Assembly: GCA_018127085.1 (NCBI GenBank)
Contig: CM030722.1
Span: 310,001-374,000 of the forward strand
Source: Pneumocystis sp. 'macacae'
Lineage: Eukaryota > Ascomycota > Pneumocystomycetes > Pneumocystales > Pneumocystaceae
Length of the DNA: 64,000 nucleotides
Direction of reading: 5' to 3'
A model generated the notes under the pieces. That model was not told where the DNA came from. It did no database searches and worked only from the letters and a program-made list of their open reading frames with translations. The position numbers were made by a program, and so were the translations under genes. Every line of letters starts with the position of its first letter. Position 1 is the first letter of the stretch. Positions 35,345 through 48,306 of this stretch are shown here, in pieces.

Positions 35345-37714
35345 TTAAGATAAACTAATACTAAAAAAAGAAGCATTATAATTGTGAAGATCGCTTACTG
35401 CAATCTTAATACGTTCTGAATTATACATAATTTCATTATTTTTTATCTCTGAAGGAACCAAATATATTTCAGTTAACCATTCATACCAAACCTTTTTTGA
35501 ATCTGTTTGACGCCAAAAATAGAGATCTATTTGCGAATTCGAAGGAACATAAAGTGGAGTCTAAAAAGTTAATTATATTTCATAATTCTTCTATATTATA
35601 CCTTTAAAGGAAAAAAAGCAGGAAACCTGATAACATTATTTAAGAAACAAACAAAAGATAGGAACGAACCATGAAACCATATCTTTCGACTTAACATCAA
35701 TCATGTCAGGCCGAGTAGATAATTCGATATCATCATAAAGAACTGCTTCAAAATACCCAGCAAATCCATGCAACATACCCTTAGAGGATATGTTAAATGT
35801 ATTATTAGATTGTCTTTTATTATGAAAATTAGAGTTTCTTTCATAACTAGAATAATTTGAATTAGGATGACTAAACTTCCATAATTCCTGGAACCTATTT
35901 TCACTATCTTGAACCAAATAATGCATAGAATATAGCCATATAACATAAAACGACTCAAATGCAGAACACTCTTTCATTCGTAATATATTCCCATACAACT
36001 TCGGGGTCATGAGAGGAGTAACATATGAAGTATAGGAAGAAGGGATAAAAATTCCACCATTTGCTTTTTTAACGTTAGTGATATCTTTATAATAAGAAAT
36101 AAAACATACGATTTAAAAATTTTTGAACACTATCAAGACATTCTGGGCAAAGCTCATTATCTCCAAAACTACCGAGTAATTCACTAATAATAATATCGAT
36201 TAAAACAGGCGATTCCCATAATCGCATATCTAGATTAACTAGATGTATAGCATTATTCCATTCATATCGATTTCGGTGTTGCAATCTTTTAAAAGTTAAA
36301 ATATTAAAAAATGAATACGTAGAAAATATACGTCACAAATGCATTTGGATTTTTTTCAATCGCATAAAGAACAATCTTATGATTAGCACGATCAGCTGCC
36401 TTTAAAGATACTGATATAAGTGGACCTCTTCCTGCGCCAACAACAGCAAGATATCTATTGCAAATATTAGTTTATATACAAACTACCCAAAAAATAAACA
36501 TTGGTTGGTCTGATTTAGGACGATTCATAAGGGCACGATAAATAGCAGATTCATATAAATTATATTTCACAAAATCTTTTTCAAAAACACTATAAGTTAA
36601 ACTTTCGAGATTGTCAGCTAAAGGCTAAAACAAGTTTTCAATAAAAAACAAAAACAAACAAACACGAATAATTTACCTGAAGAGGAACCTGTAAATAATC
36701 CTGATAGCCATCAGCAAACCTTTCAATTGCAGTAATTGGTTCCATATTTTGTTCTAAATATTTCAAATATTCAAGATATACCAAAGAACCATTCACTGTA
36801 TATATCTCATCAGACATACGCAGAAGAATACTAGGTTTTAACTAAATAAAATTAATATAAAATTAATATCGATGAATTATGTACTTTGGCAAACATAGTA
36901 TAAAAATCTCGATGAACTTTAGAAAGAACAGGATAACCCTTAGAATTAGAAACAAAAATATCAGAACTAAGAATCAAAAGACCGACAGGCTCAGAGAACC
37001 AACGTGAAATAGCAATTGGTTCAGGAAGTTTGCGTTGGATTTTAAAAGCTATAGATAAATATTAAATATATATGGGTTAAGATCTAAACCTCTAAACATA
37101 CCCAGAAACAATCTATTACTATAATTACAAGATATACGAATAACATTCCAAATGTCCCATAATACTGATGAATCAGTTAAATCATCTTCTATGGAAAAAA
37201 AAACATAGAAACGTATGTATGTAGAAAGCAAAAGTAAGTGATTAACAATTCGAGCATAGTAAGGAACCTTTATTTTTTGTGTTAGTGGAGGTAAAATGAA
37301 ATCCGAAATCCCAATATAAGAAACGTATTGAACTTCGTCATACAAAATCTAATAAAGGGTAAATGCTATCAATAGTTTTTCACGCCTTTCATCCATACTT
37401 GAATAAATCTATCTGCTACTTGTTGGTCTTGCGAATCTATCTCAATCCAAGGAGAAGCAAATGCAAATACACATGAAACATCTTTCCAATCATAAGTAAG
37501 CACTTCTTTTTCACTAAAAGAAGAAACAAAACATACCCTCTACTTGAATACACACATCTTCATTCGTAAGACAAGAATATTCCTCAAAGCACCGTTCTTT
37601 CAGTCTCCTGTTTAAAACATCAACAGCAATAAAATCATATCCATCCTGAAATGCTTGGAATCTCTGAGAAATCGAATCACATTCTAGCCCTATTGACAGT
37701 CGTTTTTTCGACAT
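35345..37714 (-). CDS. skb1: Type II protein arginine methyltransferase PRMT5/Skb1
   Basis: Makes symmetric dimethylarginine, for example on Sm proteins and histones. The N-terminal TIM-barrel domain has [37 protein letters not shown], and [18 protein letters not shown]. The methyltransferase domain has [20 protein letters not shown] (the Phe in VFEKD is the residue linked to symmetric methylation), the SAM-binding motif [14 protein letters not shown], and the double-E loop [18 protein letters not shown]. Then FIPSSYTSY, a variable loop, [20 protein letters not shown] and the beta-barrel end. The stop lies at 35347-35345. Many introns. Confidence 0.93.
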
Positions 37715-38479
37715 CTTAACAGAAAAATAACATCTATATAAATACTTTCAAGTATTTTTGCGTTTTTATTAAAAATATAAAATCCCTAAAATAGAAAAAC
37801 AGAAACTACAGTATTTGTTCCAGTTCCACAATACAAAACACAAGAAAACAAACACTAATTGTCTCTTATTTGTCCTTAAAAAATATCAAGAAATAAATAA
37901 AACACGCGGAAAATAAAGCGGCATTCGTTCATTTATCGTGCTAAACCTACCATTTCACCACCACAGATTATTACAGATCCAAGCAAAAAAACAGAAAATT
38001 TTACAAAAACCATGATCATCCATAATGAAAAAACACACCATTGTTTCATTCTGAATGCCTCAAAAAGCCTTCAAAAGCTCCAAAACATTACCATTTCACA
38101 AAATGCCCTTTTATCTACATAATATGCATTTCATACACCATATACAGGGGAAAACACTATTTTATACCATTTGCAATGTCTCACTGATTGACTACAAATA
38201 AATGGAACAGTGCATTGCACATATATTGCAACACCATGGCAACACCATGACAACGTCAGTAGCGCACACAATATACATATGATGCACAGAATACGCGCAT
38301 ATACATGCATATATTATCATTTAAGCACAGAATGTGTCATATTTCGACTTATGGAATCCATCTACCATTACTTAACGGTACTTCACTATACCAAGCATTC
38401 GACTCGAATAATGATATTATGTGGGTTTAACCCTTATATCGACAACCACTGATACACAGCAGACACATCAATAAATAGA
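37715..38479. other. Gene-free interval upstream of the telomerase RNA candidate
   Basis: About 760 bases with more mixed base composition than other intergenic DNA here. It contains a short direct repeat CAACACCATG at about 38229-38250. It holds no coding gene I can support and probably carries the promoter and 5' part of the RNA gene that follows, plus the PRMT5 promoter. Confidence 0.5.
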
Positions 38480-38531
38480 GAGTAGATTTCCTGCAGTTTC
38501 TCGGCAATTGCGTCAAATATTTGCCAGAACT

Positions 38532-38540
38532 TAACCCTAA
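38532..38540 (+). other. Putative telomerase template
   Basis: TAACCCTAA read as RNA is complementary to one and a half TTAGGG repeats, the telomere repeat known for Pneumocystis and most filamentous fungi. The flanks are CT before and A after, so the match does not extend. The position, 5' of the pseudoknot, is as in other telomerase RNAs. Confidence 0.72.
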
Positions 38541-38639
38541 ATGTTCAGTCGTGCAAAATGTCATCAATAAACCGAGGTATTAAAGCCCTGCTTCATAGTA
38601 TGCACCGAAGCCGATAGACCAGTGGCAAAGACCATGAGT

Positions 38640-38785
38640 TATGCGGATTGTGTATACATTATGGACATTGTATGCATTTTTCAGTGTATATGCATTGTAT
38701 ATGCACTGTGTATGCATTATATCTGTGTATATGCATGCTATATGCGCACTATATGCACAATATATGCACAATATATACAGGATAT
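38640..38785 (+). repeat. TATGCA-rich degenerate repeat
   Basis: TATGCA, TATGCATT and TATATGCAC units recur about ten times with irregular spacing. Many are palindromic and could form stacked hairpins in RNA. It lies between template and pseudoknot of the candidate telomerase RNA, where other fungal telomerase RNAs vary in length. Open frames across it give Tyr/Cys/His/Met-rich low-complexity peptides and are not genes. Confidence 0.7.
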
Positions 38786-39024
38786 GGAGCTGATGGGACA
38801 ACATACGACACGGTATTTTCTAAAGGCTGTTTTCAGTACTGTTTCAGCCAGCTTTACGTGGTTAATACGCCTTTCAAAGTATACACCCGGAAACAGACAT
38901 AACAGCAGTTGTGATGTGTTATCAGACGCATATACAACCGATTTTTCTTGGCATTGAATGTAAAACATTCCACGATAGGCTCAACTTTACAACAGTAAAG
39001 AAGCCACTAAAAGCCACATGTTGG

Positions 39025-39088
39025 CAGCGGTTTTTTTGTGAAGTCCGTTTGTCCGCTGGATGAAATATCATCTTAAACAAAGGTTCAC
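39025..39088 (+). other. H-type pseudoknot (telomerase RNA core)
   Basis: Stem 1 is CAGCGG (39025-39030) with CCGCTG (39053-39058), 6 bp. Loop 1 is seven T (39031-39037). Stem 2 is 39038-39052 with 39077-39088: GTGAA with TTCAC, CC with GG, TTTGT with ACAAA, 12 bp with bulges GT and G. The two stems abut with no spacer at 39052/39053. The U7 loop faces the U-A pairs of stem 2 next to the junction, as in the U-A.U triple helix of vertebrate, yeast and fungal telomerase RNAs. Confidence 0.8.
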
Positions 39089-39182
39089 TTGAAATCTGCT
39101 AACACATACGGATGTGTCTGAATAACGGGTGGCTTATTATTAAAAAAGGCTTTTCTTGAGCAAAAGATATATTAGCGGGCAA

Positions 39183-39275
39183 GTGCTGTATCACCCGTTT
39201 CTCTAGCCAGGACCACCTTTTTGGTGCGATCAAAGCTTCGTGCTTGTCTGTCTACGGGTTAAGCGGAATACACAC
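39183..39275 (+). other. CR4/5-like three-way junction
   Basis: Closing stem ACCCG (39193-39197) with CGGGT (39255-39259), extended outward by GTAT with ATAC (39188-39191, 39268-39271) and GTG with CAC (39183-39185, 39273-39275). Inside are two hairpins: CACC-T5-GGTG (39214-39226) and AAGC-TTCGT-GCTT (39233-39245), in the positions of P6 and P6.1. The small second hairpin with a five-base loop matches the P6.1 size. Confidence 0.65.
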
Positions 39276-39322
39276 TACTGCACTATGATATATACTCTTT
39301 TTGTTATGAAAGATGAGCAAAT

Positions 39323-39360
39323 ATTTTTGGAACAATGTTAAGATACAAAATCAGTATCTT
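39323..39360 (+). other. Sm-binding site and 3' stem-loop
   Basis: ATTTTTGG (39323-39330) fits the canonical Sm site A-U(4-6)-G-R. After nine bases comes the hairpin AAGATAC (39340-39346) with GTATCTT (39354-39360) and then a T run. In fission yeast and filamentous fungi the telomerase RNA ends just after an Sm site, formed by the first splicing step. Possible 5' splice-like sites here are GTTAAG (39337) and GTATCT (39354). Confidence 0.65.
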
Positions 39361-39535
39361 TTTTCATTTATTTATTTAAGTTAAGTTGCCATTTGTTGTA
39401 TCTTTTATTACACAAAATACTATACTAATTTTGGACGAAAATATTTTTAGGTTCGAGTGTATCAATCGATATTCTGTGTATATTTTTAAATTTTCGTATT
39501 TCGTTAAACACCAAATACTTTATCGAAATTCTCAA

Positions 39536-40108
39536 ATGGCGAATCAAGTGGATGTCAATTATTCAGCAGAGCTTTCTCATTTTTGGCGTTTGTCTCATGC
39601 AGCATTACTTTCGTCATTTGAATTGTCAGCATATTTTATGTCAATTTTCCATGAACGGACTCATCGTTACGGAGTAACGATAAAGAATATTCCAGTAACA
39701 TCAGCATGCCCATCATGTGGCACAATCTGGATTCCAGGATGGACTTGTTCAGTACGTTTACAACGCAGCTCTGCAAAACGGTATTGGCGTCAAAAAAAAG
39801 CTATTCGAGCAAAACAGGTTCCTCCTCAGTTGAATTATTGGGTACAGTATCGCTGTCAAAGATGTCATCGAATCTTTCGATTTCAACGCCCAAAACATGT
39901 TATATCTGGACCGAAATGTTCAGATAAGTCATTTCCATCTTTCTCAAATACCTCGAAAAATCCTAAAACGCAAACAGAACAAAACATAGCCAGTCGAAGA
40001 AGAAGGAAACTACGTTTAGGTGGGCTACAGGGTATGCTAGATAGAATGATGCAAGAAGAAGCTTCCAAAAAGGAAAAAGAGTTATCTTTAGACGATTTTA
40101 TGCTTTAA
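39536..40108 (+). CDS. Rpr2/Rpp21/Snm1-family RNase P/MRP protein
   Basis: Zinc-ribbon protein subunit of RNase P (Rpr2) or RNase MRP (Snm1). It starts MANQVDVNYSAELSHFWRLS, a helical region of the family, followed by the zinc ribbon SACPSCGTIWIPGWTCSVRL and YRCQRCHRIFRF, giving two Cys pairs. The C-terminus is basic then acidic (RRRRKLRLGGL to ELSLDDFML). ATG 39536 was chosen because upstream in-frame codons do not resemble the family and fall close to the RNA candidate. It is a single exon. Assignment between Rpr2 and Snm1 is not safe from sequence alone. Confidence 0.8.
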   Translation: MANQVDVNYSAELSHFWRLSHAALLSSFELSAYFMSIFHERTHRYGVTIKNIPVTSACPSCGTIWIPGWTCSVRLQRSSAKRYWRQKKAIRAKQVPPQLNYWVQYRCQRCHRIFRFQRPKHVISGPKCSDKSFPSFSNTSKNPKTQTEQNIASRRRRKLRLGGLQGMLDRMMQEEASKKEKELSLDDFML

Positions 40109-40181: not shown

Positions 40182-41704
40182 CTATATACGTAAATTTATG
40201 CCAACTAAAAAACAGATTTTCATACGCAAATGTTGTCTTGGATGATCAGATCCTTCAATAGGAGCAGTATGTTTAAACTGCAAAGGTATTTCCAATCCAT
40301 ATAGTTGGACAATATGCTCCTGAACCCATTTCTTTTCTTTTTCTATTTCTCTACTTACAGTCAAAGAGAAAATACATAAAAAGCAAACAAGCAAACTATC
40401 TCACTTGTGGTCAAACTCACCTTGTCAAAGATGCTTTGTCTCGAGGAAGAGGAGTCTGGTAATACTCAACTGAAAAATATGGGTGAAATACTCTACAAAG
40501 TGCCAACCAATCTACATCGTACGAAAGTTTCAACTTTTCATGTGTGTTGTCAAGTGGCGCTGGGATATCAAAAATTTCTAAAAAACGACGACCCGGTAAA
40601 CATTTATCGAGTGCTAAAAACTGAGTCGTTTTAATCGGGTCTTTTTTATCATCTGAAGTATTCGATGCATCTACAGAATCACAAACAGTTTCACTCATAC
40701 TATCATCGCTTAGATCTATTTCATCCGGGTTCTTTGCAATATCTTCTGTCTCTCTTTCCTTACAGTCTTTGCCTTCCATGTCATGTATTTTCACTGCCTC
40801 AAACCTTACATGCAAATGTGCTGCAAACCAATACCTTGGCTGCAATTGGTTCATTAGACGCTCATTAGGCTCGGACCCTAAGCAGTTTTTTTGTATGTCG
40901 TTGAAAAAAAAAGGCTTCTTCAGTAATAATTTTTTGTAATCCCCATATTTCTCAATTCCTCGAGGCCAATCATGTGACAAAAAAATATCAATAGGCTTTG
41001 TTCGTGGTATATTCAATAGTTTCGAAACTTCAAACTCGCGAACATGGTAAACACTTCTCAGTGTTGTTGCATCATACGGCACTCTTTCGAAATGTCCTAT
41101 ATAACACGATCATTTAATTTTTTCTCAAATATACTGTTCCTCCAACCCTTTCCATAATCCTTTTCCTTATAGATCCCTGATAGCCCAGCAATCCTCAATC
41201 CACCTATACTAATAACGTTTGCGGCACCCATATAATATATATTCGGGCAGACCCATCCACCATAATATCTTTGTTTCTACTGTTAAAAGGCAAACAGAAG
41301 ACGAATCATAAAAAACCGCTTACAATTCCCACATATAATTGCTTGCTTCGTGATTTCCACCGACAAAAACGGTCAAAATAGGAGCTTTCTTTGCACCAGA
41401 ATAATATGATGAAAAATCACCCAATTTTCTGTATTTTTCAGGAACAGACAAGCATTTCAGGTCTGTCAAATTACGGACAGCCTCTTTGCACTCAGAAAAC
41501 TCGCTTTCTCTGTAAAAATTACCTGAAAATCTCCAGCAATAAGCAACAAATCAACCTGCTCAGATGTCTCTTCTTCTATACGTTGAATTGCAGCGTAAAT
41601 TGCGTCAAGCTCACTATGACAACATCCTTCAATTGCAATCTTAGCAATCGTTAAAAATAATCAAGAATTATATCAATAATTGAGAAATCAGACTTTACCT
41701 TCAT
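40182..41704 (-). CDS. DBR1: Lariat debranching enzyme Dbr1
   Basis: Metallophosphoesterase that opens intron lariats, in a genome with very many introns. Spliced reading starts [20 protein letters not shown] with an intron after codon 2 (41698-41640). Metal-binding motifs follow: [72 protein letters not shown] block and the [11 protein letters not shown] loop match the family. The first motif is GCCHS rather than the usual GCCHG. The C-terminal domain ends with [15 protein letters not shown]. The last stop is at 40184-40182; a final 21-nt segment near 40235-40215 has intron-like ends but keeps frame either way. Confidence 0.92.
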
Positions 41705-45730: not shown

Positions 45731-48306
45731 ATGTCTGAACAACTATTATTAGAAGAAATTAACCAAGGTAAAATCTAATAATGATTAATGTAATAATTGA
45801 TTTTCGTTTAGATATAAAGAATAGTATAAATTCAAAGGAAAAAGTAGATCTTTTTATTAAAAAATCCAGATTATGCATTAAATTAAAAAAGATCGATATA
45901 GCATTAGACACACTTTTTGAAGCTTTTCATATATCTCCTCAAAACGAAGACATTAGATCTTTATTAAATACAATAAAAACACAATTTCAAGAAATAGGGA
46001 TATTTCCTACTGATTATATTAAAACTATTTTATTAGATAACTCGATAAAAAGTAATAAACAAGAAGTGTTTAGTTGTTTTTTAGGACCTAATCAAGATAT
46101 AAGAATTAAAAATTTCATTAACGAAAACGGAATACACGAATTAATGGAAGGGTTTTCAAAGTCTTTATATGACTTACATTTTTCTCTTACTGGACATCTT
46201 ATTTTTATGCTCTGCTCTTTATCAGATTTAGCATCTAAATCAATGATTAGTTATCTAAATACCAACACATTTGATGCAAAGTTTTTCTTAAAAGTTCCTA
46301 ATACTATTATTGAAACATTATTTTTAATTTTTCATAAAAAAAACTTATGGTCATCTACAAAAACATGGGAACTTTCTTTAATAAAATTTTTTAATGACAT
46401 TAGCAATGAAATAAAAGAATCAGGGAAAGAAAGACAAATACTATTATTAAGAAATATTTCTAATATTTTTTCTCTAGAAAATATCATTTTTCAATTTTTT
46501 TGTAATTCTTATTCTTTACATAGTATACTTGGTCTATTTGATCTAAGGAATGATAAAGAAACTAGAAAACTATCTTCGTTAATACTTTCGAAACTAATTA
46601 AAAAAAAAAACATTATTACAGAAGAATTTTTACAAGATCGTATCTTTAATTATATTGTTGAGTGTTTAAAAGAAAATACAAACAAAAAGTTAATTGAAAT
46701 ATACTCGATTTTTATTCACATTTTCATACTTGATTCATCAATTGGAGCGTCTCTTTTTTTAAAAAATGGGTTTTTAGAAGAATTATGTGCAGATATTCAA
46801 AATGATGACGAAGCAAATCTTTTTTTTTTACAAATGATTTCATCTTCTTGTATCAATTCTAGTTGCCGTGAAAAACTGTTAAAAATGTTTATTCCGATTT
46901 TAGATAATTTAAGAAAAAAGAAAAATATCAAAATTAATTCTTTATCTGAAATTATTATGATAAAATTAACATATCAAATTAATAAAGAAGAAAATACTAG
47001 CAATTTATCTAAGGAGGATATATTAAATCTAACAAAAAACCTTGTTTCTATTATTTCTCAAGATTATATTAATATAAACATTTCATTCATTGAAGGTTTA
47101 GCCTACGTTTCTATGTTCTCTTATATAAAAGAATACTTAGTTTCAGAAAAAAATCTATTTACAGCTATTTTTAAAAGAATTAAAGAAGAATCAGATGATG
47201 TCAATTTTGTTTTTCCAATTCTTGTATGTATTAAAAATATCGTAAGTTACAAACCTAAATTAACTGAAGAACAAGAACAAATAGCCAAACTCAAAACTAT
47301 ATTACAAGAGTCTTTAGTGATCTATGAAGATAATCTAGAATCAGATGAAAAAGTTTCAGAACGTTGTTTAAAAATAATAAATTACCAAATATTAGTAATT
47401 CTTAATTCAGCCTTATCATGTAAATTGGATAGTATAAAAACATTGTGCTCAAAAATTATATTGTCACTTGCAACAAAGCCTAAACATCGCTTTCTTCTTG
47501 CAGAACAAGGTGCTATTCGACTCCTTTATAATATAATAAAAGATTCTCAAATAAAAACATTAACTATTGAAGACTCAGAAAATAATTTCCAATATCCTGC
47601 AATAATTTCACTTACAAAGATGCTAATCACTATCAATCCAAATTCAATATTTGACCGGTCAAGACTTCAGGTTGATGATATTGTGATATATATATATGAA
47701 TGTTTAAAAATATCTGAAAATGACAACCTGTTAGTTCAATTTGAATGTCTTCTTGCACTCACTAACTTAACTTCTATGAACATGGAAGTCAGAGAGAAGT
47801 TTATTTCTATTCTTTGGCCTATAATTGAATTATTATGGCTTTCAGATAATCAATTGATTCAGAGATCAGCTGTTGAATTATTATGTAATCTAGTTGCATG
47901 TCCATCTGGTATAACATTATTTAACAAAAAGAGAAAACAAAGAATTCATATTTTATTAGCATTAGCAGATTCACCTGATAAAAAAACCCGTATAGCAGCG
48001 GGAGGAACTTTAGCAATTTTGTCTAACAATATATCTATTTGCGAGACAATATTAGAAAAAAAGAAAGGAATTAGAATTATACTAAACATGATAAATGAAG
48101 AAACAGATGATTTAATACATCGTGGATTAGTCTGTATAGCAAATATAATATATTCAACGAATTTTAAAAACGTGCTTATATTTAAAGAAGTGAGTATTAT
48201 TAAAAGTTTATCCGAAATTATAAAAAAAACCAAAAATAAAGAAATCATTAATTTGTCTTGTCAAATCATTCAAGAATTACAAAAGCTGAATTATATTAAT
48301 GAATAA
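45731..48306 (+). CDS. rng3: UCS-domain myosin chaperone Rng3/She4 (UNC-45)
   Basis: Myosin-specific chaperone needed for actomyosin contractility and cytokinesis. Exon 1 encodes MSEQLLLEEINQ and is joined by a 42-nt intron to one very long exon (the rest, about 840 residues). The N-terminal part has a short helical repeat (IKLKKIDIALDTLFEAFH). It is followed by armadillo-like helical repeats throughout, with the C-terminal UCS signature blocks KHRFLLAEQGAIRLLYNI, FECLLALTNLTSMN, IQRSAVELLCNLVACPSG and RIAAGGTLAILSNN. The length fits fungal UCS proteins, which lack the TPR domain of animal UNC-45. Confidence 0.88.

Follow-up and report, generated by a model that had tools for sequence, protein, structure and literature searches.

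We propose that the plus strand from about position 38480 to about 39335-39365 of the window very likely holds the telomerase RNA gene of Pneumocystis macacae. The window is the whole 64,000-nt stretch of DNA analyzed here, which lies within contig C3 of assembly GCA_018127085.1 (8.27 Mb, 19 contigs); the genome is given as 8.2 Mb in 16 scaffolds in the accessible part of PMC7940399. A template motif, the strands of a pseudoknot, those of a three-way junction and an Sm site follow one another there in this order, and by its sequence, the candidate would function as an ascomycete telomerase RNA and very probably belongs to that family.

Some locus of this genome must encode a telomerase RNA, since the genome has both TTAGGG telomeres and TERT. 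Contig C10 opens with a (TAACCC)n array, starting at C10:1, and the telomere repeat is therefore TTAGGG, as also given for P. jirovecii in the available excerpt of PMC8305976. The RNA-binding domain of TERT was found at C14:220229-220699, where two of three matches exceed the cutoff (E 5.8e-25 and 5.8e-5). The features of the locus, in window positions, are as follows.

36090..37714, minus strand: PRMT5 (Skb1), divergent upstream neighbor (Pfam on exon pieces)
38332..39060, plus strand: PMAC_002036, hypothetical protein of 167 aa, judged spurious (exact mapping, four introns)
38498..38529, plus strand: possible template boundary helix (free MFE of 38480-39335 and of 38495-38560)
38532..38540, plus strand: putative template UAACCCUAA, 9 nt, 1.5 TTAGGG repeats, UAA at each end (sequence)
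38645..38780, plus strand: TGTATATGCAT-type quasi-repeats folding into long hairpins (sequence, fold)
38825..38896, plus strand: potential H-type pseudoknot (sequence descriptor; folding capacity only)
39194..39258, plus strand: predicted three-way junction (sequence descriptor; free MFE of 39190-39262)
39233..39245, plus strand: P6.1-like hairpin AAGC-UUCGU-GCUU, then GU; 4 bp, loop U-U-N-G-N (sequence)
39323..39330, plus strand: Sm site AUUUUUGG (DNA ATTTTTGG) (sequence match)
39340..39364, plus strand: terminal hairpin, AAGAUAC 39340-46 / GUAUCUU 39354-60, and U-run (read from sequence)
39423..39450, plus strand: TACTAAT, resembling a branch point, and TTTTTAG, resembling a 3′ splice site, both 5′ of the RPR2 ATG (sequence)
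39536..40108, plus strand: RPR2/Rpp21/SNM1 gene, downstream neighbor, 190 aa (Pfam Rpr2, E 6.8e-15)

The interval between PRMT5 and RPR2

The candidate lies in a 1.8-kb interval that separates the start of PRMT5 (minus strand) from that of RPR2 (plus strand). The PRMT5 ATG was placed at 37712-37714 (minus strand) from the reading frame; among its six exon pieces, Pfam recognized PRMT5 on three and PRMT5_TIM on one, with no match on two, the first piece included. The RPR2-like gene that the initial annotation had placed downstream is confirmed by its Pfam match. Its open frame of 190 aa has a homologue of the same length in P. jirovecii (190 aa, 78% identical), relative to which frame the deposited model at 39536-40108, PMAC_002037 (152 aa), seems to be mis-spliced at its C terminus. 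The next gene after RPR2, on the opposite strand, is that of the lariat debranching enzyme DBR1 (40417-41082), and an UNC45-like open reading frame at 45781-48306 shows 83% identity to a P. jirovecii protein.

The interval had also been called compositionally distinct, and the GC content agrees: 39% at 38480-39340 versus 29% in the whole window, with 32% at 37714-38479 and 24% at 39341-39535. By similarity search, the candidate stretch is single copy in the genome; 57 nt of the TGTATATGCAT repeats are 83% alike to one other place, C15:256578-256635. The quasi-repeat region is probably a fast-evolving spacer arm, and it produced low-complexity Rfam miRNA matches below the gathering score. At that score, Rfam gave no match anywhere in the 64-kb window, snRNA families included, and an snRNA identity for the candidate was rejected on this ground. 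A telomere-like motif that is partly palindromic, GGGTTTAACCCTTA at 38423-38436, precedes the putative template by about 100 nt.

The initial annotation further described the interval as free of genes. As a statement about the public record this does not stand, given the deposited model PMAC_002036, which looks spurious. We give almost no credence to the view that the interval is the protein-coding gene as deposited. The model does fit the interval exactly, all 167 residues mapping with GT-AG introns, and the annotation pipeline of its submitters used RNA-seq hints (PMC7940399, in the excerpt available), so that PMAC_002036 may reflect real transcription, which is a weak hint. The fit, however, needs introns of 54, 41, 111 and 22 nt. 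Moreover, an overlapping 111-aa open reading frame, compared with a set of 5.8 billion proteins at E values up to 10, retrieved a single candidate, PMAC_002036 itself, whereas for proteins encoded nearby, P. jirovecii has homologues of 78 and 83% identity; with the deposited sequence, neither Pfam nor PDB gave a match up to E = 1. We judge PMAC_002036 to be a misreading of a noncoding locus, and the putative template lies within its codons.

Putative template, pseudoknot and three-way junction

The putative template spans 1.5 telomeric repeats, in the range expected of an ascomycete telomerase RNA (above one repeat, two at most), and its UAA...UAA frame is likewise present in the template of Aspergillus carbonarius (PMC3603654, accessible part). 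The DNA motif TAACCCTAA occurs once in the window, against an expectation of 0.63 copies, and it turns up in 48 of 100 shuffles; at this chance frequency, the template alone proves nothing. We accordingly rejected the motif by itself as evidence, TAACCCTAAD being present in 92 copies genome-wide versus 85 for its reverse.

Upstream, a possible boundary helix of 9 bp with one bulge (UUCU 38498-501, a bulged C, and GGCAA 38503-507, with UUGCC 38521-525 and AGAA 38526-529) leaves a gap of 2 nt to the template. In the available text of PMC3603654, the boundary helices of Aspergilli are mostly two nucleotides from the template. As evidence for a boundary, the modeled helix is weak: three of the 69 template-like sites surveyed below score higher and two tie, 286 of 3,000 random positions are as good, and the pair probability is 0.06-0.20 in a 161-nt local fold. 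The template bases themselves have unpaired probabilities of 0.44-0.93. In the free MFE, positions 38530-38537 (CUUAACCC, over the template) pair with GGGUUAAG at 39256-39263, just 3′ of the three-way junction; this perfect 8-nt complementarity may be due to chance or may represent a folding switch.

The sequence 3′ of the template can form an H-type pseudoknot with the layout GGCUG-UUUUCAGUA-CUGUUU-CAGCC-41 nt-AAACAG. Stem 1 would join GGCTG (38825-29) and CAGCC (38845-49), with a U-rich loop 1 (TTTTCAGTA in DNA), stem 2 would join CTGTTT (38839-44) and AAACAG (38891-96), and the sequence allows three U-A.U triples. When pseudoknots are disallowed, the MFE of 38818-38898 contains stem 2, and a GCUG/CAGU hairpin replaces stem 1. 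Such an arrangement is rare: control sequence amounting to 648 kb of strand gave five matches to the loose pseudoknot descriptor (0.0077/kb) and one to its strict form, while in shuffles of 38541-39400, the loose form appeared in 19 of 3,000 and the strict form in 2 of 3,000.

Farther 3′, the capacity for a three-way junction with a P6.1-like stem is provided by P5 (UAGcCAG 39204-210 / CUGuCUA 39248-254, extended by CCCG 39194-197 / CGGG 39255-258), a P6 hairpin (CACC-UUUUU-GGUG, 39214-226) and the P6.1-like hairpin, for which the vertebrate P6.1 sequence, AAGAGTTGGGCTCTG, serves as reference (PMC10035886, accessible part). Folded freely, 39190-39262 has an MFE structure in which the same arms form a three-way junction (z -1.22; 29 of 200 shuffles as stable). 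CACC-UUUUU-GGUG was also considered as P6.1 and rejected, its loop being without a G and AAGC-UUCGU-GCUU fitting the vertebrate pattern better. A first junction scan, in which the P6 helix had to be uninterrupted, did not pick up the candidate; its one hit was another locus, L049. Because the descriptor was altered after that scan, it is partly post hoc, and its rate with the loop UUNGN, four matches in 616 kb of control sequence (0.0065/kb), is to be read in this light.

The genome contains 175 copies of TAACCCTAA. In 92 of them the next base is A, G or T, and in 10 it is a C with a non-C after it (102 together); the other 73 are followed by CC and include the telomere arrays and, on C1-C9, at least 22 interstitial TAACCCTAACC sites. 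We surveyed 69 sites (in loci L012-L071), namely 67 of the 102 non-CC copies and two of the CC kind; this count leaves out the sites in L002, L006 and L007. Up to 2.5 kb downstream of each site was searched for a loose pseudoknot, a loose junction (loop UNNGN) and an Sm site. A pseudoknot was found at 4 of 69 sites, a junction at 4, and both in order at one, the candidate, which also holds the sole ordered template-pseudoknot-junction-Sm set of the survey.

The claim of the initial annotation that the hallmarks stand in the right order on one strand, here the plus strand, is borne out. The elements that it listed were likewise recovered at 38532-38540 (1.5-repeat template, as TAACCCTAA), 38825-38896 (H-type pseudoknot with U-rich loop, as a potential fold), 39194-39258 with 39233-45 (predicted three-way junction with P6.1-like hairpin) and 39323-30 followed by 39340-46/39354-60 (Sm site before a 3′ stem-loop). 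The covariance-model search that it had named as a check came out negative, with no Rfam telomerase family matching the interval up to E = 10; we take RF02462 to be the ascomycete telomerase RNA family. A search for other Pneumocystis DNA, through RPR2 in viral contigs, gave 15 pattern matches, of which none was confirmed.

The true telomerase RNA might instead lie elsewhere, in which case the present locus would encode a structured noncoding RNA of another kind, or its motifs would have come together by chance. We regard this as unlikely, considering that the ordered set is absent from all 68 other surveyed sites, that the 60 loci holding the surveyed sites yield only five tRNAs in Rfam at the gathering score, and that no known RNA family in Rfam fits the PRMT5-RPR2 interval. 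What speaks for it is the slight excess of TAACCCTAAD over its reverse, the fact that 28 of the 69 sites match the telomere repeat over a greater length, so that match length does not favor the candidate, a survey that covered 67 of 102 non-CC sites, few TAACCCTAACC sites and one template register, and single domains (boundary helix, junction and pseudoknot segments) that are each not unusually stable on their own.

From the background rates, about 0.0002 ordered sets are expected at 102 sites (0.012 if any 5-nt P6.1 loop is allowed) and 0.0004 at all 175 copies, telomere arrays included (0.02 with any 5-nt loop), figures that assume independence and search spaces of 1 kb, 1 kb and 0.3 kb and that flatter the case because the descriptors were shaped partly after the site was seen. 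The control sets omit L032, which holds the candidate. The pseudoknot control also omits L001-L005, L007, L008, L010 and L011, the majority of them overlapping with other loci; the junction and Sm controls comprise L012-L071 plus the window flanks. L031, overlapping the window by ~1 kb, is counted twice.

As a whole, the telomerase RNA candidate is more stably folded on the plus strand than shuffled sequence. The plus strand of 38480-39335 has a z score of -3.94, with none of 20 shuffles as stable, versus -1.41 and 1 of 20 for the minus strand. A fold constrained to leave the template free and to contain the junction as well as stem 1 is 6.5 kcal/mol less stable (stem 2 uncredited); in it, the boundary helix is lost and the Sm site is paired.

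The Sm site and the 3′ end

The Sm site AUUUUUGG, near the 3′ end of the candidate, fits the consensus AU5-6GR as given in the available part of PMC3603654 and is close to the Sm site AUUUUUUGG of U5 RNA from the same genome. AU5-6GG has a background rate of 0.15/kb in control sequence, and the free MFE pairs most of the site (39322-39328 and 39330). Beside it, neither AUAAGU nor GUAUGU was found at the candidate locus. GUAUCU, within the terminal hairpin, could serve as a 5′ splice site; at 39354, it is not adjacent to the Sm site, and its frequency is 1.21-fold relative to background, not clearly above it. Splice-site statistics from branch-point heuristics gave no clear consensus.

The downstream TACTAAT/TTTTTAG pair might function in telomerase RNA processing or belong to an intron of the RPR2 5′ UTR. 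In the latter case, the elements of the interval could be read as the promoter or 5′ leader of RPR2, with TAACCCTAA as a telomere-repeat-factor site. That U2 of the same genome carries AACCCTAACCCT upstream and that the pair ends 86 nt before the RPR2 ATG would suit such a reading, which we nonetheless find very improbable: the TAACCCTAA motif lies 1 kb from that ATG, and a promoter would require no pseudoknot, junction or Sm site.

The telomere-like AACCCTAACCCT is located just upstream of the TATA-like box of U2 (L073), and a telomere-repeat-factor site in an snRNA promoter is possible. U2, U4 and U5 (L073, L074 and L072, respectively) are each preceded, at a distance of 51-114 nt, by a TCGGAG-type motif, with TATA-like boxes; it is in forward orientation at U2 and U4 and inverted at U5. 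This motif may be a promoter element of Pneumocystis snRNA genes, although the U4 match itself is below its gathering score. The motif common to the U2, U4 and U5 upstream regions is absent upstream of the telomerase RNA candidate, and an snRNA-type promoter motif (TCGGAGTTTAA-like, by eye) was therefore rejected for it.

Should the locus be the telomerase RNA gene, as we propose, the plus strand would be transcribed from about 38480-38500, and the transcript would bind TERT via the pseudoknot and the P6/P6.1 junction. TERT would then add TTAGGG repeats by copying UAACCCUAA, the 3-nt overlap UAA serving for realignment, and the helix 2 nt upstream of the template would halt copying. Sm proteins on AUUUUUGG would shield the 3′ end. 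This end may be formed at the terminal hairpin with its U-run or, as other ascomycetes do it, through spliceosomal cleavage a short way downstream; the spliceosomal option would have its first-step cut at GUAUCU 39354 and its branch point at 39423.

Relation to known telomerase RNAs

Vertebrate telomerase RNA shares with the candidate a TTAGGG template and a P6.1 with a 4-bp stem and a UUNGN loop followed by GU. The human pseudoknot is built on GGCUG-UUUU...UUU-CAGCC, and that of the candidate resembles the human minimal pseudoknot. In contrast, the 3′ end of vertebrate telomerase RNA is of the H/ACA type, whereas the candidate has an Sm site. An Sm site followed by a 3′ hairpin is also found in spliceosomal snRNAs, such as U5 of the same genome, but the candidate is without the upstream motif that U2, U4 and U5 share.

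TER1 of Schizosaccharomyces pombe templates degenerate repeats and has GUAUGU at its Sm site. This RNA, from the same subphylum (Taphrinomycotina), is like the candidate in its template, pseudoknot, three-way junction and AU5-6GG Sm site, and at 1212 nt it compares with ~0.85 kb for the candidate (PMC13058752 and PMC13303942, excerpts). The telomerase RNAs of Aspergillus (Pezizomycotina), as far as described in the accessible part of PMC3603654, have a TTAGGG-type template in a UAA...UAA frame and an Sm site, as does the candidate; they also share with it the U-A.U pseudoknot and the compact, vertebrate-like three-way junction, and their boundary helix, 2 nt 5′ of the template, has a possible counterpart in the candidate. 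On the other hand, the Aspergillus RNAs in this source are 1.6-2.1 kb long, versus ~0.85 kb, their Sm site is C/U rich, whereas that of the candidate has the yeast form AU5GG, and they carry the AUAAGU 5′ splice site, which the candidate does not have next to its Sm site (PMC3603654). Unlike them, the candidate has no match to the telomerase families of Rfam. Tentatively, then, Pneumocystis may possess a compact (~0.85-kb) telomerase RNA that combines a vertebrate-like pseudoknot and P6.1 with an snRNA-like 3′ end (Sm site, terminal hairpin and U-run) in place of the spliceosomal cut known from related fungi, or whose terminal hairpin encloses a 5′ splice site; this more specific proposal is the doubtful part of our reading.

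Among the matches listed, judged by titles and the starts of abstracts, we found no published description of a Pneumocystis telomerase RNA. The abstract of Qi et al. 2015 reportedly mentions early-branching Taphrinomycotina, and a Pneumocystis sequence could therefore already be listed there.

To our knowledge, members of the genus Pneumocystis cannot be cultured, and their surface-antigen genes are kept next to telomeres; their telomerase, with the RNA as part of its core, is therefore of interest. If our reading is true, the locus would correct the doubtful gene model PMAC_002036. Moreover, a Taphrinomycotina telomerase RNA with a plain TTAGGG template would help to show whether ascomycetes inherited the vertebrate-like pseudoknot and P6.1 from their common ancestor, and whether it is fission yeast that departs from the rule.
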